Positions 4,412 through 30,615 of a DNA stretch of 40,515 nt are shown piece after piece (the stretch's first letter is position 1; each line of letters opens with the position of its first letter). Under the pieces are notes generated by a model. That model was not told where the DNA came from. It did not search any database and was given only the letters and a program-made list of their open reading frames with translations. Source of the stretch: a virus; IMG/VR virus record IMGVR_UViG_3300031825_000036, positions 1 to 40,515 of that record. One strand, given 5' to 3'. Both the position numbers and the translations under genes were made by a program.

Positions 4412-5320
4412 TTAAGTCATTCCTTCGATTGTCAGGTTGCAGTCCGAGAACGTTGCGTACGGAATCGTGATGCTGAAGTCCTTGTAGAAACCGAAGATCG
4501 TGGTGATCGCCAGCGGCTCGTAGGCCACCCACAGGCACGGAGTGGCGCGCAGCGACGTCAGTCGGCGCTTCAGCGCATCGACCTCCGAATTGGGTACGGG
4601 CATGGCGAAGGTGAGCCGGTCGGCAAAGGCGCGCTGGTCCAGCACCGTGTCGCCCCACTGGTTGGTGTCCTTGCGGCTGTAGTCCTGGATGCCCGCTTCG
4701 GCACCGTAGTAGATGCCATCCCCCACCGTGAGCTGGTAGCCCATCATCAGCACGCCGCACCCGGCATTGCCGCTGTTGGCCGTCACGTCCACCTGCACGG
4801 AGGCGCTCGCATACGGCGGCACGTCCAGCGCGATCACCTGGTCCTTGTTCGACGTCGTGGCGAAGAAGTAGTCGAACCAGCTCGGCGCGGGAATCTCGCC
4901 CCTGAGGCTCGTGGTCTTGTCGTAGACCAAGCCCGCGGTCGGGTCGGTCATGCGGATGCGCACCGTGTCGGCCAGCAGGTTCAGCAGGGCCACGGCATTG
5001 ATCGCCTGGCCGGGCGCGACGGTGTAACTCATGCTGCCGGCCTTGGTCGTCTGGGTGCTGCGGCTGGTGTCGAACAGCTTCCAGCGGTTGGTCGGACTGA
5101 CTTCGATCCACCAGGCAGCATTGGCGACGAGCGTCGGGTCCTTGCCGAGGTTGTTCGCCTGCAGGCTTTCGTAGACCTTGTGCGTGGCCACGACGATCAC
5201 GCGCGCAGCCAGCGCATAGGTGGTACCGGCAGCCCACGCAGCGTAGTCGGCCTCGGGCACGTCGGTGGCCGACAGCATGGCGTCCGTGATAGTCAGTGGC
5301 TTGACGATGGCCAGGCTCAT
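4412..5320 (-). CDS. Tail protein following the tape measure (tip or hub candidate)
   Basis: This is a 302-aa protein. Residues about 25-62 (AAWAAGTTYALAARVIV...KVYESLQANNLGKDP) have the spaced Trp/Tyr pattern of small chitin/cellulose-binding-type modules often found on phage tails. The rest is beta-rich with no TM segment. Its ATG overlaps the tape-measure stop (ATGA at 5320-5317), so translation is coupled. Position directly after the tape measure is where distal-tail or tip proteins are encoded in siphophages, but I recognise no Dit or Tal family motif. The structural role is therefore inferred from position. Confidence 0.6.
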   Translation of the reverse strand: MSLAIVKPLTITDAMLSATDVPEADYAAWAAGTTYALAARVIVVATHKVYESLQANNLGKDPTLVANAAWWIEVSPTNRWKLFDTSRSTQTTKAGSMSYTVAPGQAINAVALLNLLADTVRIRMTDPTAGLVYDKTTSLRGEIPAPSWFDYFFATTSNKDQVIALDVPPYASASVQVDVTANSGNAGCGVLMMGYQLTVGDGIYYGAEAGIQDYSRKDTNQWGDTVLDQRAFADRLTFAMPVPNSEVDALKRRLTSLRATPCLWVAYEPLAITTIFGFYKDFSITIPYATFSDCNLTIEGMT

Positions 5321-8300
5321 ACCGTCCTCGTCTGCGGCATGCCGTCGAACTCCCAGCGCTCCAGCAGTTTGACCATGCGCTGATTGATCGTCACCTGGGC
5401 CCGCGCCTGTGCACGCGCTTCCGCCGTCTGCTGCTCCAGCACCTGCGCCATTCGTTGAAAGTCAAGCCCGTCGCGCCGATTCACGTCGGCGGGAACGATG
5501 CGCTCGCCGCGGTGGATGCGTGCGTTCATGTCGCCGGGAACGAAGTCGGTGCCGACGTCGAACGAGGGCAGGCCCATCGCCGCCGCCTCGCGGTTGGAGT
5601 ACCCGGCCGGCAGGCGCATCAGCGCGTCCAGGCTGTTGGCAGAGATGCCTTGCTCGATCGCCTTCGCGTAGATCGAGGCGCGGTCCCCGGCCGCTGCTTG
5701 CGCGTTCACCCAGGCACGCGCGGTGTCGGCGGTGTACTGGTCACCCGTGATGCCGCTGATGGTCAGGCCCGCTGCGTTCTGCAGGCCGATCGCGCCGCCA
5801 GTGGACTGCCACACCTTGCCCATCGGACTGTCGACCCACTGTTCGGTGGCGGCCACCTTCTTGCCTGCCGTGGCGGCTTCGCGGGCCAGTGCCAGCGCCA
5901 GGCGGTCGATCGCGTCGCGCACGCTGATCACGCTGGTGTCGATGCCGCGCAGCGCGTCGATCTGCTGGCGCGCAAATTGCAGCGTTTCGTCCAGCTGCTT
6001 GATCTGCTCCTTGGCGGCCTGCAGCTGCCGCTCGGCCACGGGGATGGCCTTGCCGGCAACGCCCTGCAGCTGCGACAGCTGGCCGGCCAGCACCAGCTGG
6101 TCGCGCTTCTGTTCGAACGCCGACGCGTAGTTGGCCGCGCCCATGCCGCCGCGCGCTGCGCCGATCGCGCCGGCCAGGTCGGCCTGGTCCGGCAGGTAGC
6201 CGGTGGCCAGGGCGGTAGACAGCGCCTGGTCGATGAACTGGCGGCCCGCAGCGGCGGCCATCTGGGCGGCCGCTTCGCCGTAGAGGCTGCCGATTTCGCT
6301 GCGCAGCATGTCGAAGATGCTGCGCAGCGCGCCCAGTTCTTCCTGCGCGACGCTGGCGGCAAGCTCGGCGCGCTCGCGCTCGGCGGCCGTGGCGCGCTCC
6401 AGCGCGGCGTAGGCGGCGTCCGTGGCACTGATCCATCCGTCGCGGGTGGACTGGATCGCGGCCGCTGCCTTTTCGGCCTCGGGGTGCAGCTCGGCGAAGG
6501 CGCGGGCGACGTCCAGGATCGCCTCCTGCGCGCCGGTGTTGCCGAGCGCCTCCATGCGCAGGTACAGCTGGCGCAGGTCCTCGCGCGTGGCGCCCAGGAT
6601 CTGCTCGGGGCTGAAGTCCATGCCCGCTTGCGACAGCCGCTGCTGAATCTCGCGTGCCCGGAAGGCGCGCAGCTGCTCCGCGTTGAGGTAGTCGGCCACG
6701 ACGTTGGAGAGCTTGCTGCGGATGCCGTCCAGGCGCTCGGCGGCCTTCTCGGCGGCGGCGGCGAGATCCTCCTGCGCGTAGATCTGATCGAGCAGCGCCC
6801 GGTTGCTTTCGTCGACCGCAGCCCGTTCTTGCTCGCGGGTGCGGGCGAGCTTCTCGGTCTGGCTGGCCGTGAGCTGGAACAGGCGCTCTTCGAGCTGCGC
6901 GCGCTGCTGCCTGGCTGCCGTGGCGCGGGCGGCTTCCTCGTTGACCTGCGCCAGGGCCTGGGTCAGCTCGTCGGCCGAGCGCTGCCCGACGTCGCCCAGC
7001 TGCTGCAGGATCTCGCCCACCTTGCCCGTCAGGTTGGCCTGCCGCAGCCCGCGCAGGATCGCCTCGGTGCTCATGGCGCCGATCGCCGCCGTCAATTCCT
7101 CCTGCGAGCGGCCCACGTCCCGATTGAGGTCGGTGAACTGCACCGCGCCGCCGCGGCTGGCGGTCACATCCAGGAAGGTCGGGCTGTCGCCCTTCGGATC
7201 GGCGCTGTAACCCAGGCCGAACGAGAGATCGCCTTGGCGGCCGAACGCCTGCAGGATGCCGCTGTACTGCGCCTGGATGGCCTGCGCGGCGGTGCGCGCT
7301 GCGCTGTCGGATTCGGTCGTGTGGTTGCCCGCACCGATGCCGGAATTCAGCAGCCCGAAACTGCCGTCGACCTTTGGACCGCCCCCCTTCTTGCCGAACA
7401 ACGAGTAGATCGCGGCGGCGCCCAGCGCGATCGGCCCGAGGGCGCCGAGCGCCATGCCCGCGCCTGACAAGGCGCCCGCGGTGGTGCCCGAGGTAAGCAA
7501 CGAACCGGCGGCACCCAAGGATCCGGAAAGACTCGTGGCACCCGTCAGCCAACCGGCGCCGGCCGCCAATGAGCCGCCAATACCACCGGCACCGAACACC
7601 GAACCCAGCGCGGAGCCGGTAGCAGAGCCGAGGATGCCGTTGGCTCCGCCAGCGCCCGCAGAGGAAGCACCCGTCAGCGCACTCGCCACCGCGCCGGAGA
7701 TCGGCTGCACGGCGGCCAGGATCGTGGGCTTGAGCACCAGGTTCTCGAAGATCGCCTGGGCCTTGCTGGCAGCGTCGCGCGTGCGACCTGTCAGCACGTC
7801 GTACAGGGTCTCGCCGACCTCGCGGTTGGTCGAGCTCCACCTGTCGATCCAGATCCGGGTGGCTACTTGCGCGCGGGCCTCGGCCGCACCGCGCTCTGCC
7901 TTGTCGACCAGCTCCTGCTGCTGCGCGGCCGTCAGGTTGCCTCCTTTGGCCGCGTTGCTGATCTTCTCCTTTTCCTTCAGCAGAGCGATGTCGATCTTGC
8001 GCAGCTCGATCAGCTTGCGCTGTTCGTCGGCGCTGCGGCCCATCAGGCCGATCTCGAAGTCGACCGCCTTGCCCTCCAGCGCGATGGCGTCGACGTACTG
8101 CTGCACCATCTGGGTGGCGGCGTTGTAGCGGTCCGCTGCAGCTTTCTCTGCCTGCGCCCACTCGTCCTTCCACTGGGCCACCTCGGCCGCCACTGCCTCG
8201 CGCGCCTTCTTGGCACGCTGGGCCTGCGTCGTTTCCACGTCCGAGATCGCCTTCTGCCTGCGGCCAGCGATCTTCTCCTCCAGGACTACGGCCTCGCCCT

Positions 8301-10152
8301 CCAGCTCCGCGACCTCGCGCTGGCTGTTGGCCTTCTGCCTGGCGATCGCGATCTTGGACTGCACCAGCTGGCGATCGCGCTCGAGCTGCTGCACCTCCAA
8401 GGCGGCGGTGCGCTCGATGAACTCCACCTCGCTGGACAGGCCCTGCCGGTACGCCGCGGCGACCTGCTCGACGCCGCTGCGAATGATCTCCGCCTGCTGG
8501 TCGTTGAACTTCTGCAGCCGAGCCAGGCGCGCCCCCAAGGCATCCTGCTCCTTGGGATCGACCATCTTCTCCCGAGCGGCAGCCACGGCAGCGTCGATCT
8601 CTGCCTGCGGCCGGCGCGCGAGGGCACCGTCAGCCTCGATTTGTGCGATTCGATTCTTCCGCTGCTCACGAACGCTCAGCGATTGATTGAGCGCATCGCT
8701 GAAGCGCTTCTCCGCTTCAGTTTGCTTCGCCTGTTCTGCAGCCGCGAACGCAGCTTTCGCTTCCTCCGCGACCAGGGCCTGGGTCGCGGGCACCAGCGCC
8801 TTTACCGCGGCGAGTCGCTGATCGAGATCGCCGGTGGCCAGCCCGCGGGCCTTGCGGCTGTCGATCTGCGCTTGCAGCCTGGTGACAGTCGCCGCGGCCT
8901 GGTCGGACTGCTGCTGCGCCGACAGCGGCCGCCCGATGTCCAGCAGCGCGTCGGCTACGCCGGAGACGGCGCTCTTGATGCCCCGCCACAGCCGCTCCAG
9001 GCCGCCAAGGTTGCGCGACATCTCCGGCATGCGCTGCTGCAGTGCGTCGGCCAGCGAGGTCTGGGCCAGTTCCACGGCCTGCGTGTGTTCACCCGCGTCC
9101 TTCAGGGCTTTGATCTGGCGCAGCGTCGCGGCGGTGAGGTGGTTGTACGTCTGCGTGAGCTTCACGCTCGCGTCCACCGGCGACTCGGCCAGCGCAGCGA
9201 ACTCCTTGGCCGTGTCGGCCACCGGCTTGCCCACCAGCCGGTCCAGTTGCTGGGCGATGCCAGCGAAGCGCTGCAGGTGCTCGGCTCCGACGCGCCCAGT
9301 CTGTGCGAACTGTCCGATCGCGTCCAGCGCCGCGCTCTTGGTGCCGCCGATCTTGGCCAACTCGGCCGCCATCTGGCGGTACTGGCTCACCGTGCCGCCG
9401 GCGGCGTTGCCCGAGAGCGTCACCTGGCGTTCGAACTTCGCGACCTCCTCAGCCCCCGAAAACGCCGCGTACGCCAGCGCGCCGACGACCACGGCCGCCA
9501 CGCTCACCGGCGTGATCATGGCGCCCACGTAGGCGCCCAGCGCGCGGGCCGCCGGTCCCACCCCGCCGAAGACGTCCTTGAGCTGGCCGCCCTGCTGGAT
9601 CAGGATCTGCAGCGGCGACTGCCCGGCAGCGATCTGCGTGACCATGTCGGTGAACTGCGGACCGACCATGCGCATCATCCGCCCCGAGCTGGCCGCGCTG
9701 GCGCCGAGGCGGTCGACGCCGCGTGCCGCCTCCGCGAGCTGCGGCGCCACCGCCTTGGCAGCGCTCAGCACGCCGGCATTGGCCTCGACGCCGCTGGCCT
9801 TGTAGGCTTTCCATTGCTCGGCGATCTGTCGGATCGCCTTGGTGTGCGCGTCAGCGTGCGACAGGCCCTCGGCCGAGAACTGCCGCATGGCCGGACCCAT
9901 GTTCGCTTTCACGAACTCGGTCCAGGTCATCGCGCCCTGCTTGGCCTGCCCGATCCCGGCGGCCACCTGCTCCAGGCCCGTCGCAGCTTCCCGCGACGAC
10001 TGGTGAATCTGCGCCGCCGCTGCCTGCGCGGCGCGCCCCGTGTCGGCCACGGACTGGCTCAGGGCCTGGGTGGCCTTGGCGTTGGCGGCCATGTCCACCA
10101 CGAACGCCTGGCCGTCCGAGGTGACCTTGATGGCAACGGTGCGTTCAGTCAC
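5317..10152 (-). CDS. Tail tape measure protein
   Basis: At 1611 aa this is the longest gene in the window. The N-terminal region (about 1-170) is helical and contains the MVGPQFTDMVTQIAAGQSPLQILIQQGG segment typical of prophage tape measures. It is followed by hydrophobic segments near 200-235 and a Gly/Ala-rich hydrophobic zone near 830-925. Long Gln/Ala/Glu-rich coiled coils lie between and after these. The C-terminus has FDVGTDFVPGDMNARIHRGERIVPAD, common to this family. It sets tail length and is ejected with the DNA; at about 0.15 nm per residue it would give a tail of roughly 240 nm. It overlaps the upstream DUF1799-like gene by 8 nt. Confidence 0.95.
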   Translation of the reverse strand: MTERTVAIKVTSDGQAFVVDMAANAKATQALSQSVADTGRAAQAAAAQIHQSSREAATGLEQVAAGIGQAKQGAMTWTEFVKANMGPAMRQFSAEGLSHADAHTKAIRQIAEQWKAYKASGVEANAGVLSAAKAVAPQLAEAARGVDRLGASAASSGRMMRMVGPQFTDMVTQIAAGQSPLQILIQQGGQLKDVFGGVGPAARALGAYVGAMITPVSVAAVVVGALAYAAFSGAEEVAKFERQVTLSGNAAGGTVSQYRQMAAELAKIGGTKSAALDAIGQFAQTGRVGAEHLQRFAGIAQQLDRLVGKPVADTAKEFAALAESPVDASVKLTQTYNHLTAATLRQIKALKDAGEHTQAVELAQTSLADALQQRMPEMSRNLGGLERLWRGIKSAVSGVADALLDIGRPLSAQQQSDQAAATVTRLQAQIDSRKARGLATGDLDQRLAAVKALVPATQALVAEEAKAAFAAAEQAKQTEAEKRFSDALNQSLSVREQRKNRIAQIEADGALARRPQAEIDAAVAAAREKMVDPKEQDALGARLARLQKFNDQQAEIIRSGVEQVAAAYRQGLSSEVEFIERTAALEVQQLERDRQLVQSKIAIARQKANSQREVAELEGEAVVLEEKIAGRRQKAISDVETTQAQRAKKAREAVAAEVAQWKDEWAQAEKAAADRYNAATQMVQQYVDAIALEGKAVDFEIGLMGRSADEQRKLIELRKIDIALLKEKEKISNAAKGGNLTAAQQQELVDKAERGAAEARAQVATRIWIDRWSSTNREVGETLYDVLTGRTRDAASKAQAIFENLVLKPTILAAVQPISGAVASALTGASSAGAGGANGILGSATGSALGSVFGAGGIGGSLAAGAGWLTGATSLSGSLGAAGSLLTSGTTAGALSGAGMALGALGPIALGAAAIYSLFGKKGGGPKVDGSFGLLNSGIGAGNHTTESDSAARTAAQAIQAQYSGILQAFGRQGDLSFGLGYSADPKGDSPTFLDVTASRGGAVQFTDLNRDVGRSQEELTAAIGAMSTEAILRGLRQANLTGKVGEILQQLGDVGQRSADELTQALAQVNEEAARATAARQQRAQLEERLFQLTASQTEKLARTREQERAAVDESNRALLDQIYAQEDLAAAAEKAAERLDGIRSKLSNVVADYLNAEQLRAFRAREIQQRLSQAGMDFSPEQILGATREDLRQLYLRMEALGNTGAQEAILDVARAFAELHPEAEKAAAAIQSTRDGWISATDAAYAALERATAAERERAELAASVAQEELGALRSIFDMLRSEIGSLYGEAAAQMAAAAGRQFIDQALSTALATGYLPDQADLAGAIGAARGGMGAANYASAFEQKRDQLVLAGQLSQLQGVAGKAIPVAERQLQAAKEQIKQLDETLQFARQQIDALRGIDTSVISVRDAIDRLALALAREAATAGKKVAATEQWVDSPMGKVWQSTGGAIGLQNAAGLTISGITGDQYTADTARAWVNAQAAAGDRASIYAKAIEQGISANSLDALMRLPAGYSNREAAAMGLPSFDVGTDFVPGDMNARIHRGERIVPADVNRRDGLDFQRMAQVLEQQTAEARAQARAQVTINQRMVKLLERWEFDGMPQTRTV

Positions 10153-10516
10153 GTTCCAGATGTCTGTTGCGCAGCGGCTTGGCTTCAGCCACCAGCGTGT
10201 TCAACTGCCGGAACAGGCGCGGGCTGGGCGAGATACCGAGCCACTTCTCGGCCACGTTCGCCGCGCGCGCGAAGTCCAGTCCCTGCCAGTACATGCCGCC
10301 GAAGCCGGCGATCGCGATCCACTGCGTGTCGCACGCCACCAGCAGGTGCACAGCATCCAAGTGTTCCGGCCATACCTCGTACTCCTCCTGCCGCTCGCTC
10401 CTGGCCTCCTGCACCGCCGTGGGCGGAATCAGCCGGTCGATGTCGATGCCCAGGCTCGCGCACTGGGCCTGCACCTCGGGGTCGTCTCGATCCTCGGCGG
10501 CGCTGGTGCTCGTCAC
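10145..10516 (-). CDS. Tail assembly protein, DUF1799-like (frameshift extension)
   Basis: This 123-aa protein lies between the first chaperone gene and the tape measure. The central VWPEHLDAVHLLVACDTQWIAIAGFGGMYWQGLDFA segment matches the pattern of DUF1799 proteins found at this site in many siphophages. The apparent start is a GTG that overlaps the upstream stop (GTGA, 10516-10513). The frame is -1 relative to the upstream gene and remains open back to an A AAA AAC slippery site at 10552-10546. The main product may therefore be an approximately 270-aa fusion, equivalent to the GT product of lambda, rather than a stand-alone protein. Confidence 0.8.
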   Translation of the reverse strand: MTSTSAAEDRDDPEVQAQCASLGIDIDRLIPPTAVQEARSERQEEYEVWPEHLDAVHLLVACDTQWIAIAGFGGMYWQGLDFARAANVAEKWLGISPSPRLFRQLNTLVAEAKPLRNRHLERD

Positions 10517-10956
10517 TCCGTAGAAGTGGCGGGCAGCGCCCCGGAGTTTTTTTCCGGGGCCTTCAGGAAGTTGTCGAGGAACGTGCGCACGATCGCGCCG
10601 CGCACGCCCAGCACCCGATTGGCTCGCGCCAGGTTGTCGGGCGTGTAGGGCAGCGGCCGATCGTCGTCGCCCAGCACGTCGTCCCAGTCGATGACGAACC
10701 GTTCGATCACCTCGCGGTCGGTCAGCTCCTTGGCCGCCGTCGCGGTCGGGTCGGCCGGCGCGGCCGGCGGCTCGGCCGGCAGCAGGGTGGCGCGCGCCTT
10801 GTCGAAGACGCGCTGGATCAGATCCTCGACCTCGTCCTGGTCGGGCCGGCGAAACTTCACCTTGAAGCCGATTTTGACGGTGGTGCCGAGATCTCCGATC
10901 AGCTCGTGTTCCACGAGCTGCCAGAAGTGCGGCACGACGGCGATGCGAAACGTCAT
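10513..10956 (-). CDS. Tail assembly chaperone (G-like)
   Basis: This 147-aa protein is encoded between the major tail protein and the tape measure, where siphophages carry the tail assembly chaperone pair. The N-terminus (MTFRIAVVPHFWQLVEHELIGDLG) is compact and beta-rich; the C-terminal half is helical and acidic. The ATG at 10956 follows AGGAACGACC. Near the 3' end the codons GAA AAA AAC (residues 135-137) form a -1 slippery site. A small fraction of ribosomes probably continue into the DUF1799-like frame, as with lambda gpG/gpGT. The family is assigned from position and signal, not from sequence motifs. Confidence 0.75.
   Translation of the reverse strand: MTFRIAVVPHFWQLVEHELIGDLGTTVKIGFKVKFRRPDQDEVEDLIQRVFDKARATLLPAEPPAAPADPTATAAKELTDREVIERFVIDWDDVLGDDDRPLPYTPDNLARANRVLGVRGAIVRTFLDNFLKAPEKNSGALPATSTE
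10546..10552 (-). promoter_or_regulatory. -1 ribosomal frameshift site (A AAA AAC)
   Basis: On the minus strand the zero-frame codons are GAA AAA AAC TCC, giving the classical heptamer A AAA AAC. After a -1 slip the frame stays open through the downstream GTG and the whole next gene. A GC-rich segment follows immediately, and CTCCG/CGGAG arms (10546-10542 and the stretch just before the stop) can pair. Frame relation and gene context are those of tail chaperone frameshifts; use of the site is inferred. Confidence 0.8.
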
Positions 10957-23921: not shown

Positions 23922-24511
23922 TGCTTGCCTTCCTGGATGTAGTCGATCAGTCGTTGATGCCTCAGGCGGTCTTCGGCGCAGAGGCGGGCGTTGAGGGCCT
24001 GGTTGTCCCAGGCTGCGGTGAGGGAGACGCCGGAGTCAGCGGCACAGGCTGCCTCGGAGGTGTCAGCAAGTCCGCAGGCACCCACAGGGGCGTCCTGCCC
24101 GGCGAGGGCGGAGTTCCACATCCAGACAGCGCCCAGAGACAGAGCAGGGTCGCCGCCGACGACAGGAGGCGGCTGCGGCTTGCCGGAGCTGCTCCCAGCC
24201 GGCGCAGTTGCGACGGCAGCAGTGGCCGGGCGGGCAAGGATGGGGTGCTGGCGCTTGTACGCATTGAATGCTCCCTGGAGTTGGTCGGACCGGATCTGCT
24301 GGGCGAGCAACTGCGCCTGCAGCTCACCGCTGGCCTTGTCGGAGCGGCGCAGCTCGGATTCGCGCGCGTCGCCCTCAGCCTTCAGCCGCTTCGCCTCCTT
24401 GGCCTGCCAGGCGTTGTCGCGGGCCGCGTCGCCCCAGAAGTAGCCTGCCGCGAGCACCGCCGCGGCGGCGAGGATTGCAGCGAGGGCGCGCGCAGCCATG
24501 CTGTCAGGCAT
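23900..24511 (-). CDS. Rz-like inner-membrane spanin (i-spanin)
   Basis: This 203-aa protein has an N-terminal TM anchor (ALAAILAAAAVLAAGYFWG, about 8-26) and then a long charged helix (WQAKEAKRLKAEGDARESELRRSDKASGELQAQLLAQQIRSDQL), the usual i-spanin layout. It spans the periplasm and, with the nested Rz1 lipoprotein, fuses inner and outer membranes at the final step of lysis. The ATG at 24511 overlaps the transglycosylase stop; another ATG at 24499 is possible. It is longer than lambda Rz (153 aa) because of a Pro/Ala-rich C-terminal region that overlaps Rz1. Confidence 0.8.
   Translation of the reverse strand: MPDSMAARALAAILAAAAVLAAGYFWGDAARDNAWQAKEAKRLKAEGDARESELRRSDKASGELQAQLLAQQIRSDQLQGAFNAYKRQHPILARPATAAVATAPAGSSSGKPQPPPVVGGDPALSLGAVWMWNSALAGQDAPVGACGLADTSEAACAADSGVSLTAAWDNQALNARLCAEDRLRHQRLIDYIQEGKQWTPNSK
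23962..24264 (-). CDS. Rz1-like outer-membrane spanin lipoprotein, nested inside Rz
   Basis: A second frame within the i-spanin gene encodes a 100-aa protein. It has a basic n-region, a hydrophobic segment and a lipobox (LLSSAATLLCLWALSGC, Cys49), followed by a Pro-rich tail (TPPSPGRTPLWVPADLLTPPRQP). This is the o-spanin signature. The in-frame ATG at 24264 has AGGGAG at 7-nt spacing, which decides the start. Complete nesting inside Rz is common, for example in lambda. Confidence 0.8.
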   Translation of the reverse strand: MRTSASTPSLPARPLLPSQLRRLGAAPASRSRLLSSAATLLCLWALSGCGTPPSPGRTPLWVPADLLTPPRQPVPLTPASPSPQPGTTRPSTPASAPKTA

Positions 24512-25448
24512 CCAGGCTCAGGTACCGCACACGCCGCTGCAGCAGGATCTGGCGCACGTAGCCGCGGTTGATCTCGAAGAAGCTGGAGCCGTAGCCCTGA
24601 ACGGCCTGGCGCGCCTTCAGCGAGGTGCGCTCCACGTGCCCGAACCATCGGCCCGGATCGCACCCTGCGGTCGCGGCGCACATCACGCGATCGCTGCGCA
24701 CGCCGCCAAGGCCGCCGTTGTAACCGGCCAGCGTGAAGGCCATGCGGTCGTGGACGGTAGCCGCGTCGTGCACCTGGTTGAAGGCGCCCAGGTCCTTGAG
24801 CACCAGCCCGCGCAGCTGCATCTGCGGGTCGTAGCGTTCATCCCAGCGCCAGGAGCCGAGAGCGGCAGGATGCGCTGCGCGCAGCTCCTCGAACACGTTG
24901 AAGCGGCTCGTGACCGTGACTTGGCCCAGCCCGAAGCCGTACTCGCGCGGCGTTCGCAGCTCGGCCCGCGGATTCCAGCATTTGGGGTGGGTGAGCGAAG
25001 CACAGGTTTCCTGTTCCACCTGGGCGCCGAGCACCGACGGCTGGGGCATGTCAGGCCACCAGGCGCGCTGCTCCGCCTGCAGGAGCGGCAGGTAGGCGAG
25101 GGCAGCCGCCGGCGGGGCGGCGGCGCGGGCGTTGGAGGTGGCGAACAGGAACAAGACCGCCGCAGCCAGGATGCAGCGTCCCAGGTACACGGCGCCGGCG
25201 CCCAGGTTGGCGCCGACGATCGCCTCGCACGCCGCGGCCTGCGGGTTGATGTTCGGCTGCAGCAGGCGCAGCGAGCAGTCACCCGCGGCGAGCGCCAGCA
25301 TGCACAGGCCGAAGTTGAAGAGGATCGGCGCAGCTTCCGGTGTCCAGGCACGGCCCAGCGGAATGGAGAGCCACAGCATCAGGGCGCCCAGCAGCGCCAG
25401 CAGGAGGATGCGGGGGAGGGCCCGCCCAAGGGAATCGAGGATCGGCAT
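24504..25448 (-). CDS. Holin-like membrane domain fused to a lytic transglycosylase
   Basis: This is a 314-aa protein. Residues 1-110 hold three hydrophobic helices (about 12-32, 40-58 and 76-105), including SLGRALPRILLLALLGALMLW, and resemble a small phage holin. The C-terminal part is an SLT-type transglycosylase: Glu147 in GAQVEQETCAS, then EYGFGLGQVTV (169-179) and the FTLAGYNGG motif. The enzyme would cut peptidoglycan glycan strands with formation of 1,6-anhydro-muramic acid. A holin-like domain and endolysin on one chain is unusual. Start ATG at 25448 with GGAG 8 nt upstream; first gene of late block 1. Confidence 0.82.
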   Translation of the reverse strand: MPILDSLGRALPRILLLALLGALMLWLSIPLGRAWTPEAAPILFNFGLCMLALAAGDCSLRLLQPNINPQAAACEAIVGANLGAGAVYLGRCILAAAVLFLFATSNARAAAPPAAALAYLPLLQAEQRAWWPDMPQPSVLGAQVEQETCASLTHPKCWNPRAELRTPREYGFGLGQVTVTSRFNVFEELRAAHPAALGSWRWDERYDPQMQLRGLVLKDLGAFNQVHDAATVHDRMAFTLAGYNGGLGGVRSDRVMCAATAGCDPGRWFGHVERTSLKARQAVQGYGSSFFEINRGYVRQILLQRRVRYLSLDA

Positions 25449-25495: not shown

Positions 25496-25527
25496 GGAAT
25501 GAATAAGGCCGACTGATGTCGGCCTTA
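25496..25527 (-). terminator. Terminator/leader hairpin before late block 1
   Basis: TAAGGCCGAC/GTCGGCCTTA (25504-25513 with 25518-25527, loop TGAT) form a 10-bp stem followed leftward by TTCATT. It separates the repressor-linked cargo cassette from the lysis genes. The hairpin core and the nearby AGCCTAGCACA (25543-25553) recur before late block 2 at 16781-16844. Confidence 0.65.
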
Positions 25528-25556
25528 GCTCACATGGTATCTAGCCTAGCACACCG

Positions 25557-26060
25557 TCACCAGAACCAGCAAAGCAGGCGCTGGTGGAGCCACAGTTTTC
25601 TGACGTGATCGGGATGGCCCTCGGCGGTCGCTTGCTCGCGTTCGCAAATGAGGGTGAGCCACTTCTGCGCCGGCGGAGCCTTGGCGCAGAGACGGGCAAA
25701 GTCCGAGCGCCAACTGGCGGTCTTGCCTGGCGTCAGCTCTCCGGCTGGAACGAGTTCGATCGCGGCGATCAAGTTCGATGCCTGTTCGGCGAGTTCCTTG
25801 TGCACCTGCCGCCGATCCGTGTACCCGAATATCAGGGCGAGCAGGCCGAGCGCGGAAACGGCGACGCCCACCGCGGGGGTGTCTTTGACATACTGGCCGA
25901 AGAGGGTCGCGCCCAGTGCGATCGTCGCCGTCTTCGTCAGCTTGTCCACGATGTCCCAGAAGCGCTGCTTCTTGCGGTGATAGCGCTGCTGCACCCATGC
26001 CTTGTAACGCACGTCGCAGCGCTGACCCCACAACTCGTCGGACACGCAGTCGTCTTCCAT
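25557..26060 (-). CDS. SLATT-like two-TM protein (possible defence effector)
   Basis: This is a 167-aa protein. A short N-terminal helix with RYHRKKQRFWDIVDKLTK precedes two TM helices (TATIALGATLFGQYV and AVGVAVSALGLLALIFGY, about 44-85). A cytoplasmic helical half follows, with RQVHKELAEQASNLIAAIE and LICEREQATAEGHPDHVRKL. This is the layout of SLATT-superfamily two-TM effectors, which in other systems (for example CBASS-like and retron-like loci) form pores in response to infection. Here it is the last gene before the terminator, downstream of the repressor. Start ATG at 26060. The effector role is an inference; it could instead be a second holin-like lysis gene. Confidence 0.6.
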   Translation of the reverse strand: MEDDCVSDELWGQRCDVRYKAWVQQRYHRKKQRFWDIVDKLTKTATIALGATLFGQYVKDTPAVGVAVSALGLLALIFGYTDRRQVHKELAEQASNLIAAIELVPAGELTPGKTASWRSDFARLCAKAPPAQKWLTLICEREQATAEGHPDHVRKLWLHQRLLCWFW

Positions 26061-26093
26061 GCGCCAGATTGTGGCACCCTCGCTGCGACCGTG

Positions 26094-26291
26094 CTACTTG
26101 GACGGCTTCGGCGGCGGCGGTGGCGGCGGTGAGAAATAGACCGTGTTGTCGTCCAGGGACTTGCCGAGATCCCGACTCTCACGAACGGGCGATTGCCGCA
26201 CGTCTGTGGACTCCCGCGACGGCCGTGGCGGGGGTGGCGGGGGTGGCGGCGGTGGCGGCGGTGGCGCCGGTGGCTTCTTGTCGTTTGGCAT
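26094..26291 (-). CDS. 65-aa proline-rich microprotein
   Basis: This gene is supported by a perfect GGAGGTGA ribosome-binding site upstream of the ATG at 26291. The product starts MPNDKKPPAP, has a long polyproline stretch and a second Pro run (SPPPPPPP) near the C-terminus, with a charged centre (RESTDVRQSPVRESRDLGKSLDDN). Such sequences form polyproline II helices and bind partner proteins or need EF-P for translation. No family is recognised. It lies between the HNH gene and the SLATT-like gene and is read in the same direction. Confidence 0.68.
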   Translation of the reverse strand: MPNDKKPPAPPPPPPPPPPPPPRPSRESTDVRQSPVRESRDLGKSLDDNTVYFSPPPPPPPKPSK

Positions 26292-26337
26292 TGTGGTCAC
26301 CTCCGCCAGGCAGCGTAGCACGACAGTTAAAGCGGCG

Positions 26338-26664
26338 TCAATTTGGCCGAGGTTTGGCTGGTGTTGTGGCCATGCGCCGCAGTTTGCGGCATTCCCGCGC
26401 GTCCACCACCGTCTTGAAGCGGTGATCCTCCACCGACAGCCAGGCCATGTTCGTGTGCTTGTCCTCACCGCCCGCGCACAGCGGAATCGAGTGGTCCACC
26501 TGCCAGCCTGGGCAGGCGCCGGCGCGGCGGCCCGTCGCTGGGCATGGATTCTCGGCTCGGAATGCGCGGATCTCGGCCGCGGACCGCTCGATGCGATCGG
26601 CGGCATGGGCGGTTGAGAGAGTTAGGACCAGGATCGCCACCTGGACACTGATCGTCCGAGCCAT
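26338..26664 (-). CDS. Secreted HNH endonuclease
   Basis: This 108-aa protein begins with a Sec signal peptide (MARTISVQVAILVLTLSTAHA, cleavage after AHA). The mature part is an HNH nuclease: the beta-beta-alpha metal motif WQVDHSIPLCAGGEDKHTNMAWL supplies the HNH residues, followed by EDHRFKTVVDARECR. The signal peptide decides the start at 26664. Phage HNH proteins that help terminase are cytoplasmic, so an exported one suggests action on DNA in the periplasm, for instance against incoming phage DNA. It lies downstream of the lipoprotein gene. Confidence 0.78.
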   Translation of the reverse strand: MARTISVQVAILVLTLSTAHAADRIERSAAEIRAFRAENPCPATGRRAGACPGWQVDHSIPLCAGGEDKHTNMAWLSVEDHRFKTVVDARECRKLRRMATTPAKPRPN

Positions 26665-26698
26665 AAGGCGCCAGCCCCAGGAATCGGCCGTCTTGGCC

Positions 26699-27103
26699 CT
26701 ACTGTGAGCAGCCCGTGCCCGTGTACGTGATCCAATTCGTGCGATGGACGACAACGAGCTCTCCTCCATGCGCCCGGAGCGGGAACCCGCGTTCTTGGAT
26801 GCCTGTATAGCCGCCGTATGAGTTCTTCGCATTGAACTCTACGCAAAGCATCCAAGCTTCCTCGAAATTCCAGCCCAGCGTCGTTGCAGTGATCGGCGCC
26901 AGCTCGCCGACAACAGCGAAGTCCTTCATGCTGTCGTAGTCCTTGAGTGTCCGCTTGAGCGTCTGGTGGGCGACGGCCACAGCTTGGTCAAGTTGGGGTG
27001 GCGGTCCACGCTTTTCCAGGTAGACATTGCGCGGTGCATCAGCACACCCTGTGAGGGAAACTGCCAGTGCGCCTGCTACGGAAATCAATCCACAACATTT
27101 CAT
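26699..27103 (-). CDS. Lipoprotein encoded next to the repressor
   Basis: This 134-aa protein has a lipoprotein signal: MKCCGLISVAGALAVSLTGC with the LTGC lipobox (Cys20). The mature part is globular and beta-rich (ATTLGWNFEEAWMLCVEFNAKNSYGGYTG). Start ATG at 27103 with AAAGGAG. It is the first gene after the repressor on the same strand, so it is probably expressed in lysogens. Small phage lipoproteins at this place often block superinfection by the same phage, for example Cor or Llp; that role is inferred from location. Confidence 0.72.
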   Translation of the reverse strand: MKCCGLISVAGALAVSLTGCADAPRNVYLEKRGPPPQLDQAVAVAHQTLKRTLKDYDSMKDFAVVGELAPITATTLGWNFEEAWMLCVEFNAKNSYGGYTGIQERGFPLRAHGGELVVVHRTNWITYTGTGCSQ

Positions 27104-27155: not shown

Positions 27156-27938
27156 TCACTTGATTGTCACGCCGGCCCACCGAACCCGGCCGATGATGGC
27201 GAAGTCGCGTTCTGTATCCTCCGTTCCGCGCACCTCGAATGGCTCGTAGTCGGGATTGAGACTTCGGATTCTGAAAGACTTTCCTGGTAGTCGCTGCACC
27301 TGCTTCACGAGTAACGCGCCGTCGAGGCGGATGACGTGAATGCCGTCGTTAAAGACCTCATGCGCCGACCGCAGGTCGACCAGGACCGTGTCGCGTGAGT
27401 GCAAAAGCGGCTCCATCGAGCTGCCGATAACCGTGATCAGTGCGATCGCATCATGGCCGATGCCGAGTTCTCCAGCGATGTAACTCTGATCGAACGGGCG
27501 CATCTTGGTGACCGACTCGACCTGGTCGAAGAGGTTGCCGGGCCCGGCGGATGCCTGCACATCGAAATGAGGCACGTAGATGAAATCGCCTAGCTGCACT
27601 GCGCGCGTGTTCTTCTTCAGGCCCTCCGCCGCGCCTTTGGGCACCTGAGCGCCGGTGAGGAGGTGCTCAGCGCTGGTCTTGTACAGGGTGGCCAGCCGTT
27701 CCAGCTCGAACGCATCTGGCAGGCTGTCCCCCCGTTCAATGTTCCAGATGGTGTTGCGGTGGACACCGAGGACGGTCGCTACATGCGACACCTCCAGCGC
27801 GCCACGCGCGGCCCGGCATCGTTCGCCTAGCGCGGCCATGAACTGGCCTCTCTCCCGCTTGATCGCTTCGCGGCGCTTGTCCTGCTCCGTCCCGTACCGT
27901 TCAATCCGGCTGGGGGATGCTGCCTTTTTTGTGTCCAT
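27156..27938 (-). CDS. LexA/S24-type phage repressor
   Basis: This is a 260-aa protein. The N-terminal helix-turn-helix spans about residues 36-90 (LGERCRAARGALEVSHVATVLGVHRNTIWNIERGDSLP). An S24 peptidase domain follows, with Ala131-Gly132 (ASAG) as the likely self-cleavage site, Ser174 in IGSSMEPLL and Lys212 in LLVKQVQRLPG. Such repressors keep the prophage silent and are inactivated by RecA-stimulated self-cleavage after DNA damage. This differs from Mu c, which is ClpXP-controlled, so the prophage is expected to be SOS-inducible. The ATG at 27938 lies 7 nt after a predicted -10, suggesting a leaderless mRNA. An operator overlaps the start codon. Confidence 0.9.
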   Translation of the reverse strand: MDTKKAASPSRIERYGTEQDKRREAIKRERGQFMAALGERCRAARGALEVSHVATVLGVHRNTIWNIERGDSLPDAFELERLATLYKTSAEHLLTGAQVPKGAAEGLKKNTRAVQLGDFIYVPHFDVQASAGPGNLFDQVESVTKMRPFDQSYIAGELGIGHDAIALITVIGSSMEPLLHSRDTVLVDLRSAHEVFNDGIHVIRLDGALLVKQVQRLPGKSFRIRSLNPDYEPFEVRGTEDTERDFAIIGRVRWAGVTIK

Positions 27939-27945
27939 GAACACA
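27930..27945. promoter_or_regulatory. Operator overlapping the repressor start codon
   Basis: TGTGTCCATGAACACA is a near-perfect palindrome (7 of 8 pairs) over the repressor ATG. The half sites TGTGTCCAT and CATGAACACA recur, spaced apart, at 28060-28087 over the early promoter. These are probable binding sites of the repressor and/or the Ner-like protein. Confidence 0.65.
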
Positions 27946-27974
27946 ATTGTTAGCGTCTCCCGCTTTAATTGCAA
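27946..27974 (-). promoter_or_regulatory. Repressor promoter (leftward)
   Basis: On the minus strand TTGCAA (27974-27969), a 17-nt spacer and AACAAT (27951-27946) precede the repressor ATG (27938) by 7 nt. Transcription would start at or next to the A of the ATG, so the mRNA would be leaderless. Confidence 0.55.
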
Positions 27975-28043
27975 ATTACCGTCTGGTTTTCCCTGATCGC
28001 ACATCGAGGGCAGCCTCAGTAGCGATTTCGCGACACGGCGCTG

Positions 28044-28087: not shown

Positions 28088-28444
28088 AGAAAGGCAGCAC
28101 AAAACCACGGAGATTGGCATCCAGCCGACGTGGTTGCTGCACTGCGGAAGCGCGGCGTTAGCCTCCGGCAGCTCGCCGCCCAAAATGGATACAGCCACAT
28201 CCAGCGAGTGCTCACGAGTCCGTGGCTCGCGGCGGAGCAGATCGTCGCCCGCGCCTTGGACCTGAAGCCGGAAGCGATCTGGCCGTCTCGCTACCGCAAT
28301 CCGGCCGACCGGCAGCGGGCGTACGAGCTCACGCGAAAGATCAAGGTGACGATGCCTCGCAAGCCTCGTGAGGCTCGTCCGGTGGCGTCCGGTGGCGGCG
28401 ATGGAAGCAAGCCTGCGCTGGGCCGGGGACGGAGGCCATCATGA
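28079..28444 (+). CDS. ner: Ner/Nlp-like early regulator
   Basis: This 121-aa protein has a full Ner/Nlp domain (about 11-72): WHPADVVAALRKRGVSLRQLAAQNGYSHIQRVL, then SPWLAAEQIVARALDLKPEAIWPSRY. Ner proteins are small helix-turn-helix factors that damp early transcription and the repressor promoter, in the manner of Cro. It is longer than Mu Ner (75 aa), with a basic C-terminal tail. An ATG 6 nt upstream (28073) is also possible, but the predicted transcription start favours 28079. Its stop overlaps the transposase ATG. Confidence 0.87.
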   Translation: MNTRKAAQNHGDWHPADVVAALRKRGVSLRQLAAQNGYSHIQRVLTSPWLAAEQIVARALDLKPEAIWPSRYRNPADRQRAYELTRKIKVTMPRKPREARPVASGGGDGSKPALGRGRRPS

Positions 28445-30615
28445 AAAGCGCCTGGCTCACCGCCCGCGAGCTCGCCGGTCTCCCCGGCATGCCCAGCACG
28501 GAGTTCCGCACCCGCGAGAAGCTGACGAAGCTGGGACTGCAGGCACGCCCCCGCGCCGGCCGCGGCGGCGGCCTCGAATACGACTGCAGCCGCCTGCCTG
28601 CGGAAACCCGCACGGCGCTGATGATCGACCAGGTCGCCACTGCCACGGCGCAGATCGCGGCGCTGGCCGAAGTCCCGACCGCGACCCAGCCCCAGTTGCC
28701 CGTCCGGCATGTCGCCAGCGAGCGGCGCCCGCCCAGCCAGGGCGACAAGGCGGTCGCCGACGCGCGCATCACGCTGGTGAACCAGCTGCTTGCCCTCGAA
28801 GGCCTGCACGGCGTCAAGCGCGCGGCCTCCATCATCGCCCTGCAACTGGCCGCCGGCGAATGCACCGACGAACTGCGCCAGGCGGCGCGCACCGCCAATC
28901 AGCGGGCGCGCGATACATCGGTGAGCGATCGCACCCTGCTGCGGTGGCTCAGCACCTACCGCGCTCACGGCTGGTGGGGCCTGTTGCCCGCGCCGGTGGA
29001 GGCTACCCCGGTGGCCGAGGTGGACGACGACGTCGCCCAGGTGCTGGCCCTGTATCACACCAAGGATGCGCGCTTCCGCAACCTGAGCCAGGCGGCGCAG
29101 GACGTGACCAAGCGCCTGCAGCGCCCCGCCGACGCGTGGAAGCAGCTGTATGCGCGCGCCCGGCGGGCGCTGCCCAAGGTCAACAAGGTGGACCTGATCA
29201 AGGCGCGGCACTCGGGATCCGAGGCCAAGGCCCTGCTGCCGCACAAGCGCCGCGACACCAGCGTGCTCAAGCCGCTGGACGTCTTCGTCGGCGACGGCCA
29301 TACCTTCAAGGCCAAGGTCCGGCACCCGGACCACGGCGCACCCTTCGCGCCCGAGGTGACGGCCATGATGGATGCGGCAACCCGCAAGATCTGCGGCTGG
29401 TCGTCGTCCCTCTCGGAAAGCGTGATGGCGGTAGGCGATGCACTGCGCCACGCGGTGGGCAACGCCGGCGTGCCCGCCATCATTTACAGCGACAACGGTT
29501 CCGGCCAGACGGGCAAGCAGATCGACTGCCCGATCACCGGCGTGGTCGCCCGCCTCGGCGCGGAGCACCGCACAGGTATTCCGGGCAACCCGCAGGCGCG
29601 CGGCCTGATCGAGCGCAGCTGGTCGACCTGGCTGATCAAGTGCGCGCGCCAGTTCGGCAGCTACCAGGGCAAGGACGTGGACAGCGGCACCCTGCGCAAG
29701 GTCGCGAGCGAGCTGGCGAAGGAGCAGAGGGCCCTTAAGCGTGCCGAGCACACCGGCGAGGTGATCCAGCTCAGTCAGAAGGCGCCGAGCTGGAAGCAGT
29801 TCGTCGCCGCGGTCGACCGGGCGGTGCACGAATACAACACGCAGCACCGCCACCGCAGCCTGCCAAAGCACACCAGCGGGCCGCATGCAGGCAAGCACAT
29901 GACACCCCAGGAAGCCTGGGACGCGATGCTCGATCGCGAGCACCAGTTCAAGCTGGGCGATCTGGAGCTGCGCATGCTGTTCATGCCGGCGCTGCTGCGC
30001 ACAGCCAAGCGCGGCGAGGTGCAGTTCCTCAATCAGGTGTACTTCAGCCGCGAGCTGATGGCCGTTGACGGGCAGCAGGTGCGCGTGCACTACGACATCC
30101 ACGACCCGAGCTTCGTGCTGGTCTTCACCGCCGAGGGCGAGTACGTGTGCCAGGCCGACTGGAACGCCAACCGCGTCGAGTACTTTCCCAAGCCGGTGGT
30201 GCAGATGGCGCGCGAAAAGCGGGTCGAGGCTCGCATGAAACGCCTGCAGGGCCAGATGGACCTGGCGCAGCGCGAGCTCAGTGGCACCACTGCCGCAAGC
30301 AACGTGTTTTCCCTGCCGGAACCTGGCACCCCCGTGGTGCTGGCGCCCGCTGTGGGGGCTCTTCCGAGTCCCCTCCATCCTGTTCTTCCCCCACAGGCGC
30401 AGCCGGCGCAAGCCGCTGCGGGCAGGCCTTTCTTCGACACCCCCAGCGAGCGCTACGAGTGGCTCATGGGGCACCGCGACGCCTGGGAGCAGGACGACCA
30501 CGACTGGATTGCCGGATACGTGGCGGGCGACGAATACGAGTCACTGGCCGAGTACTTCGCCAGCCGGGGCATCGAGTGGAAGGGTGGGGACGAGGCTTTT
30601 AAGAGTGCCCGGTAA
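28441..30615 (+). CDS. MuA-type DDE transposase
   Basis: This is a 724-aa protein. The N-terminal Mu DNA-binding domain (LTARELAGLPGMPSTEFRTREKLTKLGLQ, about 5-70) binds enhancer or end sites. The catalytic core has the DDE triad Asp285 (FVGDGHTFK), Asp351 (IIYSDNGSG) and Glu391 (GLIERSW), a spacing close to MuA (269/336/392). A C-terminal beta-barrel region follows (Mu-type C domain). It performs strand transfer during lysogenic integration and lytic replication. Expected to bind the CTTTGGCACC sites at both ends. Translation is coupled to ner by ATGA overlap. It appears intact. Confidence 0.95.
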   Translation: MKSAWLTARELAGLPGMPSTEFRTREKLTKLGLQARPRAGRGGGLEYDCSRLPAETRTALMIDQVATATAQIAALAEVPTATQPQLPVRHVASERRPPSQGDKAVADARITLVNQLLALEGLHGVKRAASIIALQLAAGECTDELRQAARTANQRARDTSVSDRTLLRWLSTYRAHGWWGLLPAPVEATPVAEVDDDVAQVLALYHTKDARFRNLSQAAQDVTKRLQRPADAWKQLYARARRALPKVNKVDLIKARHSGSEAKALLPHKRRDTSVLKPLDVFVGDGHTFKAKVRHPDHGAPFAPEVTAMMDAATRKICGWSSSLSESVMAVGDALRHAVGNAGVPAIIYSDNGSGQTGKQIDCPITGVVARLGAEHRTGIPGNPQARGLIERSWSTWLIKCARQFGSYQGKDVDSGTLRKVASELAKEQRALKRAEHTGEVIQLSQKAPSWKQFVAAVDRAVHEYNTQHRHRSLPKHTSGPHAGKHMTPQEAWDAMLDREHQFKLGDLELRMLFMPALLRTAKRGEVQFLNQVYFSRELMAVDGQQVRVHYDIHDPSFVLVFTAEGEYVCQADWNANRVEYFPKPVVQMAREKRVEARMKRLQGQMDLAQRELSGTTAASNVFSLPEPGTPVVLAPAVGALPSPLHPVLPPQAQPAQAAAGRPFFDTPSERYEWLMGHRDAWEQDDHDWIAGYVAGDEYESLAEYFASRGIEWKGGDEAFKSAR

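Follow-up and report, generated by a model that had tools for sequence, protein, structure and literature searches.

The stretch of DNA analyzed here, referred to as the window, is the IMG/VR virus record IMGVR_UViG_3300031825_000036 over its full length of 40,515 nucleotides (nt). Its MuA-type transposase (36% identity to that of D3112) marks it as a Mu-like transposable phage, and divergently from the transposase gene lies the gene of an S24-type CI repressor. Four short co-oriented genes follow the repressor on the minus strand and encode a lipoprotein, an HNH nuclease, a 65-amino-acid (aa) polyproline protein and a protein with two transmembrane segments (two-TM protein); the gaps from the repressor through the two-TM gene are, in order, 52, 34, 46 and 33 nt. 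Between the two-TM gene and the endolysin gene, RNA folding gives a hairpin of -21.3 kcal/mol (z = -6.3), and in a custom scan 0 of 30 shuffles were equally good; a stricter consensus scan of the window called neither a terminator at the hairpin nor a minus-strand promoter. A previous sequence-only reading had described the four genes as a cassette on the strand of the repressor that ends at a terminator before the lysis genes. Both this description and the proposed position in a lysogeny operon agree with the open reading frames (ORFs), all of which are present, with the gaps of 33-52 nt and with the terminal hairpin. The core of the locus is a conserved gene pair, formed by a small proline-tailed disordered protein and the two-TM protein.

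The two-TM protein belongs to the family phrog_11791, and in 55 of the 66 loci of this family a proline-tailed ORF lies just upstream of the two-TM gene. The same test was passed by 30 of 754 other genes at these loci and by 0 of 12 loci of the curated SLATT_1, DUF4231 or SLATT_5 families. It counted ORFs of at least 35 aa with their end no more than 150 nt before or 25 nt after the start of the two-TM homology, with at least four prolines in the last 18 residues and a K or R in the last six. Before duplicate removal the association was found in 44 of 53 loci (Fisher p = 1.6e-43), and the tail was also present in 8 of 11 new phylum-level loci, which had been collected regardless of it. A wider distance window at the curated SLATT/DUF4231 loci returned one spurious ORF, inside a larger gene, and the idea that SLATT proteins in general have a tail-like partner was rejected for the curated families sampled. 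These counts support a partner role for the polyproline protein, which the sequence-only reading had taken to be partner-binding.

The nearest homologues found (L010, L020, L021 and L022; L and G numbers denote the loci and genomes of our collection) all have an upstream short ORF with a C-terminus like that of the window, TVxFSPPPPxPxxPSK, the start of the L020 partner being cut off by the contig end. After trimming, the partners are mostly 46-72 aa long and disordered by composition, and share a recurring C-terminal block made of a hydrophobic or aromatic stretch, then prolines, then a basic end. The long proline run was rejected as the functional element, as many partners without it still have the tail. 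For the last 22 codons of the partner, 18 related pairs, hand-picked and in several cases saturated at synonymous sites, gave proportions of synonymous and nonsynonymous differences (pS and pN) of 0.72 and 0.20, as expected for a translated, constrained protein. This pS far above pN, together with the constant position, similar size and kept tail in 55 of 66 loci, some without a long proline run, makes it very improbable that the polyproline ORF is an artefact of low complexity in a variable slot whose four genes are passengers with no relation to one another. The passenger reading draws on the optional presence of the HNH and lipoprotein genes and on nine Mu-like relatives (L001-L009) that yielded no lipoprotein, HNH or two-TM gene; it is contradicted for the pair, but for the lipoprotein and the HNH nuclease it remains likely.

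The two-TM protein is SLATT-like by predicted fold and not by curated profile, and we use the label in this sense because no curated Pfam SLATT model passes its cut-off. SLATT stands for SMODS and SLOG-associating 2TM effector, and the proteins of this group are regarded as membrane-killing effectors under the control of nucleotide or nucleic-acid signals. The profile of phrog_11791, which is listed as of function unknown, was matched by 19 of the 19 diverse family members scanned; the window protein itself had no Pfam, NCBIfam or PADLOC family match. An AlphaFold2 (AF2) model built from an 11-member alignment, whose conserved residues include Y27, H28, F34 and W117, reached a predicted local distance difference test (pLDDT) score of 87.7, and its two matches with E <= 0.001 (best 5e-4) in BFVD, a library of predicted viral structures, are both named SLATT (probability 1.00). 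Among the first 20 BFVD matches, eight are SLATT-named proteins of large eukaryotic viruses (probability 0.99-1.00, query template-modelling score, TMq, 0.46-0.65); the remaining 12 are either uncharacterised or without a name, one being called just 'transmembrane protein'. By hydropathy, 17 of 19 members have two neighbouring hydrophobic segments, in most cases flanked by K/R on either outside and joined by a loop poor in these residues, and the modelled protein is probably an inner-membrane two-helix hairpin with both ends in the cytosol. The SLATT-like character that had been proposed for the last gene from the letters alone is thus upheld by the fold match to predicted viral structures and not by Pfam.

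The genomic position of the pair was analyzed in the loci with at least 3 kb upstream. A repressor-type gene was found upstream on the same strand, 0.2-1.9 kb from the two-TM gene, in 31 of 43 of them, and the same 2-kb rule gave a repressor upstream of 49 of 619 other genes. L074 and L082, which the repressor search missed, contain repressor-like genes by eye. Downstream of the two-TM gene, 26 of 51 loci have a hairpin that ends in a T-rich tail (p <= 0.1 in a permissive scan, near-copies included), compared with a terminator-like hairpin at 21 of 150 other gene ends. Many carriers of the pair are, by the sequence of their transposases, transposable phages, because relatives of the L037 transposase are present in 9 of 16 loci (L037, L074, L040, L036, L068, L010, L035, L021 and L082); the window transposase as query matched 0 of the same 16 at E = 1e-4. 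Two loci, L038 and L039, were read as P2-like. The pair stands directly before a putative holin gene and the endolysin gene in several prophages, as it would if it were a lysis-timing accessory (antiholin or second holin) and not a defence module. We consider this improbable, as a separate putative holin (by reading) lies downstream in L010, L020, L035, L036 and L074, hairpins separate the two-TM gene from the next gene in the window and in the 26 loci just mentioned, and the neighbours read as non-lysis genes in the P2-like loci and in L099 and L101.

Table 1. Features of the window around the gene pair.
Feature	Position	Strand	Evidence
MuA-type (Mu-type) transposase, divergent from repressor	28441..30615	+	phrog_310 E 2e-145
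S24-type CI repressor, first gene of putative operon	27156..28004	-	Peptidase_S24 E 3e-17 and HTH_31 E 1e-8 (Pfam), phrog_4 E 3e-38
Lipoprotein with AKNSYGGYTG motif, optional neighbour	26699..27103	-	ORF, lipobox by eye, phrog_2320 E 7e-14
HNH nuclease with signal-peptide-like start, optional neighbour	26338..26664	-	phrog_333 HNH E 3e-7, alignment, AF2 model
Small partner, 65 aa, with 13-proline run at about 26226-26264	26094..26291	-	ORF, locus counts, alignments
Conserved C-terminal tail of partner, NTVYFSPPPPPPPKPSK	26094..26147	-	tail alignment, pS/pN
SLATT-like two-TM protein, phrog_11791 family	25557..26060	-	phrog_11791 E 1.6e-13, AF2, BFVD fold matches
Hairpin, probable intrinsic terminator of operon	25499..25533	-	RNA fold, custom scan
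Endolysin with hydrophobic N-terminal part, first lysis gene past hairpin	24504..25448	-	phrog_669 E 3.5e-24

In our preferred reading, to which we give a probability of about one half, the pair would be a membrane effector expressed in the lysogen and held inactive by its disordered partner. The repressor-linked genes would provide a SLATT-fold inner-membrane protein and a small disordered cytosolic protein, whose proline-rich basic C-terminal tail would dock on the SLATT protein and keep it inactive in the healthy lysogen. When a second phage disturbs the cell, the partner would lose its hold and the released SLATT protein would permeabilise the membrane, thereby aborting the infection. Docking, the inhibitory direction of control, pore formation and defence are all four steps that we infer. 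Inhibition is favored because the partner gene lies upstream, sometimes overlaps the two-TM gene and is sometimes multiplied, and an activating adaptor would account for the partner nearly as well. Judged from the SLATT fold, an anti-phage action at the envelope is plausible.

The small partner directly upstream, often overlapping, that characterizes toxin-antitoxin systems is found in most loci of this family (55 of 66): the stop of the partner and the start of the two-TM gene share 4 nt in 12 loci, the window pair being separated by its 33-nt gap. An addiction or prophage-stabilising module, with the SLATT protein as toxin, the tailed protein as antitoxin and any defence incidental, would be physically close to the inhibition model, with another purpose, and could also explain why the L101 pair sits, by reading, moron-like amid virion genes, in a family found mostly behind repressors. 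We regard it as unlikely, as a chromosomal prophage would need addiction less than a plasmid does, a tblastn search of plasmids with the window two-TM protein as the only query gave no match, and extra partner copies and a TIR protein in the partner slot would suit sensing better. Three tandem partners precede a single two-TM gene in each of L036 and L084, and two in each of L083 and L076. In L037, a transposable prophage (transposase phrog_310 E = 3e-78), a 279-aa CAP12/Pycsar TIR protein (9926-10765, minus strand; PF10137 E = 4e-26) takes the place of the partner between the CI repressor and the SLATT-like gene, and its C-terminus, KTISFNAPP, resembles the partner tail.

The same two observations, several different partners with a common tail in one locus (L036, L084) and the TIR protein of L037, would be explained if the partner were an activator or adaptor, its tail serving for docking and, once infection is sensed, for the recruitment or opening of the SLATT channel. 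This alternative is rather doubtful, as no sensor domain was recognised in the short partners (by Pfam and PHROGs for that of the window, by reading for the others) and the tail match of the TIR protein is weak. A more general formulation, which we put forward tentatively, is that the pair may stand for a class of prophage immune modules not recognised so far, in which a short disordered protein, recognisable by its modular proline-rich basic tail alone, would regulate a SLATT channel, the tail being a docking tag carried by short peptides, tandem peptides or a TIR enzyme that would feed different inputs into the channel with no nucleotide cyclase.

Several results weigh against the inhibited-effector reading. 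No Pfam SLATT model was over its cut-off in the 11 or in the 19 members scanned, SLATT_1 appearing only below threshold (E = 0.18 in 1 of 11; best E = 0.059, in 2 of 19); PADLOC and NCBIfam gave nothing for the pair of two-TM protein and partner; the two-TM model had no fold match in the PDB at E <= 0.001; and the hydropathy scan missed the first transmembrane segment of the window protein and of L085. As for position, 12 of 43 loci showed no upstream repressor, 9 of the 31 repressor-positive loci had supplied repressor queries and some of the matches are weak (E of about 1e-5), and the L101 pair lies, by reading, among virion genes. The latter placement, and that of the L089 pair beside an integrase-like gene (by reading), fit mobile cargo. 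The tail criterion is compositional, and part of the enrichment of proline and K/R in the tail alignment is built in, because the test selects those residues near the end; the V-x-F-like positions before the tail prolines are not imposed by it. Furthermore, the criterion failed in 11 of 66 loci (L103, L104, L036, L057, L061, L037, L060, L065, L135, L139 and L137). Among these, L036 has three tandem tailed ORFs, of which the one closest to the two-TM gene has a more extended basic end; the proline tails of L057, L061 and L139 are weaker; a stop codon interrupts the two-TM frame of L065; and L137 is a marginal family match (E = 2e-4). Finally, the likeness of the L037 TIR tail to the partner tail is only suggestive and not firm evidence, because control C-termini reach similar or higher scores (10 of 700 score as high in the pairwise comparison and 5 of 700 higher with the profile).

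The loci were collected with growing profiles from viral contigs (39 loci, some of them repeats) and whole genomes. The family was found in 7 of 399 genomes of the family to which G001 belongs, 9 of 399 of the order, 6 of 369 of the class and 12 of 398 of the phylum, G001 and some other genomes recurring among these tallies; a first scan of genome contigs found none and a second found one locus. The 66-locus count leaves out L079 and L081, whose upstream sequence is too short, and L090; L081 and L090 are near-copies of L082 and L089, respectively, near-copies having been looked for only among the first 53 loci. The repeats L019, L070, L071, L073, L035, L043, L044, L062 and L126-L128 never entered it, a second, broken G364 copy (L033, L034, L041) was not counted, and L065 and L066 were counted although their two-TM frames are broken. 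Left out of the 12 curated loci were L109-L111 (below cut-off), L122 (stops) and L113, L115, L116 and L118 (the same genes again); left out of the tail alignment were the spurious second ORFs L074_1, L096_1 and L040_1, the duplicate L090_0, and L063, L064 and L066. Among the phages of INPHARED, searches with the two-TM proteins of the window, L010 and L039 gave no match, and those with the L085 and L057 proteins found one, the cultured Pseudomonas phage TC7 (MG707188). It carries an unannotated 52-aa tailed ORF (L125, 3853-4011) after 'repressor protein C'. The TC7 two-TM gene, TC7_041, is annotated as hypothetical, with an annotated start that overlaps the tailed ORF; the family homology begins after this ORF.

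The two remaining genes of the cassette are best described, from their distribution, as separate optional cargo of the same slot. The HNH nuclease recognised in the sequence-only reading is confirmed at the level of prediction, the catalytic motif and the fold both being found: the phrog_333 match of the window protein, which has a hydrophobic N-terminus by eye, is accompanied by residues D57, H58 and N72, invariant in six homologues (H81 is not kept in L060), and by an AF2 model (pLDDT 73.8) whose top PDB matches by Foldseek are the HNH domains of Cas8-HNH (probability 1.00, E = 0.05); the Pfam HNH model stayed below its cut-off (E = 0.15). Of 53 loci, 3 have an HNH gene of this kind adjacent to the pair (window, L074 and L060); they were found by reading and then used to build the HNH profile, which turned up no additional adjacent case. 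The order is HNH, partner, SLATT, putative holin and endolysin-like gene in L074, and SLATT then HNH in L060. HNH relatives also occur without the pair behind repressor-type genes in L014-L017 (three found by tblastn, L014 by reading), and L015-L017 and L074 retain, by eye, the hydrophobic start, although sequence identity in this part is low. The lipoprotein of the window, MKCCGLISVAGALAVSLTGC, has the lipobox LTGC (by eye), and its family (AKNSYGGYxG, phrog_2320) adjoins the pair in 6 of 53 loci, window included, four of which were used for the profile, the others being L097 and, weakly (E = 4e-4), L067.

A joint four-gene system acting at the envelope had also been proposed as a possibility. 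It is not supported by the neighbourhood survey of the four families, in which all four genes occur together in 1 of 53 loci, the window itself, the HNH and lipoprotein genes accompany the pair in the few loci given above, and HNH genes stand without the pair in L014-L017; a fixed four-gene system is therefore rejected. An additional layer at the envelope may come from the HNH nuclease and the lipoprotein. In L014, the stretch 4669-6574 holds a row of a repressor-like gene, a lipoprotein, membrane proteins, an HNH frame with a broken start and a PemK/MazF-like protein (by eye).

The nine Mu-like relatives mentioned above, with transposases 52-55% identical to that of the window, were searched by tblastn, which is blind to the polyproline gene and missed that of L010 as well. 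It detected none of the lipoprotein, HNH and two-TM genes in L001-L009, and found DUF1804 genes beyond the slot in nine of nine and terminase genes in eight of nine. In the five of the nine whose slot genes were read, these differ from those of the window, and on this comparison the slot behind the repressor is variable. Some further features were seen in and around this slot. In L038, a BRCT-like protein (8250-8732; E = 0.001, just under the Pfam cut-off) is encoded between the repressor and the proline-tailed gene. In L010 (4187-5179), L036 (6179-6978) and L068 (4137-5068), a motif like the RHIM core, [IV]Q[IV]G, occurs both at the C-terminal end of the CI-like repressor and early in the gene that follows, a pattern that would suit signalling from the repressor to its neighbour. 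In L003 (6043-6977) and L004 (6046-6950), the sequence GNVTAGRDVN is common to the repressor C-terminus and the N-terminus of the next, two-TM-like protein. The window endolysin ORF (24504-25448) has a long hydrophobic N-terminus where relatives have a separate putative holin gene, and may be a holin-endolysin fusion.

SLATT proteins have been predicted to be pore-forming effectors (PMC7159879). In DRT10, deletion of the SLATT gene abolishes phage defence, and the authors raise the possibility of a toxicity that is neutralised and then released on infection (PMC12632851). A TIR gene adjoins the SLATT gene in firmicute phages, sometimes with a helix-turn-helix (HTH) gene (PMC9503650), and a pair of reverse transcriptase and SLATT has been described in a P4-like satellite (PMC9122126). 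The two-TM protein resembles known SLATT proteins such as that of DRT10 in its two-TM hairpin with helical cytosolic parts and in its fold match to SLATT entries of the viral library. Unlike DRT10-type systems, however, the window cassette combines a proline-tailed partner with the two-TM protein and has no reverse transcriptase, nucleotidyltransferase or SLOG match; such a partner is missing from all 12 of the curated SLATT/DUF4231 loci tested. Likewise, in contrast to CBASS, Pycsar and DRT, no match to a signal-making enzyme was found among the four cassette genes, the related locus L037 having the TIR protein. With the firmicute-phage arrangement (PMC9503650), the family shares a phage SLATT gene and, in L037, a TIR gene next to the two-TM gene, whereas the window cassette lacks a TIR match and a small partner is the rule. 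The 2TM effectors of Panoptes and of a miniature Cas10 system are likewise discussed in a phage-defence context, with mention of indirect detection and inhibitory signalling; the signal there is nucleotide-based and the candidate regulator here is a small protein. The PHROG entry phrog_11791 is the family itself, and its listing gives neither the SLATT fold nor the partner. In the openly licensed literature, covered mostly at the level of titles and abstracts, we found no description of a proline-tailed SLATT partner; within this coverage, the SLATT effector is already known and the disordered proline-tailed partner appears to be new.

Taken together, these results give phrog_11791 a testable function as one half of a conserved pair, and bring to light small genes that annotators have skipped, as in phage TC7. 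The tail before a two-TM gene can serve as a search tag for more modules of this type. If the proposed mechanism is true, this phage branch would place the SLATT fold under control at the protein level, exerted by a tiny disordered partner.

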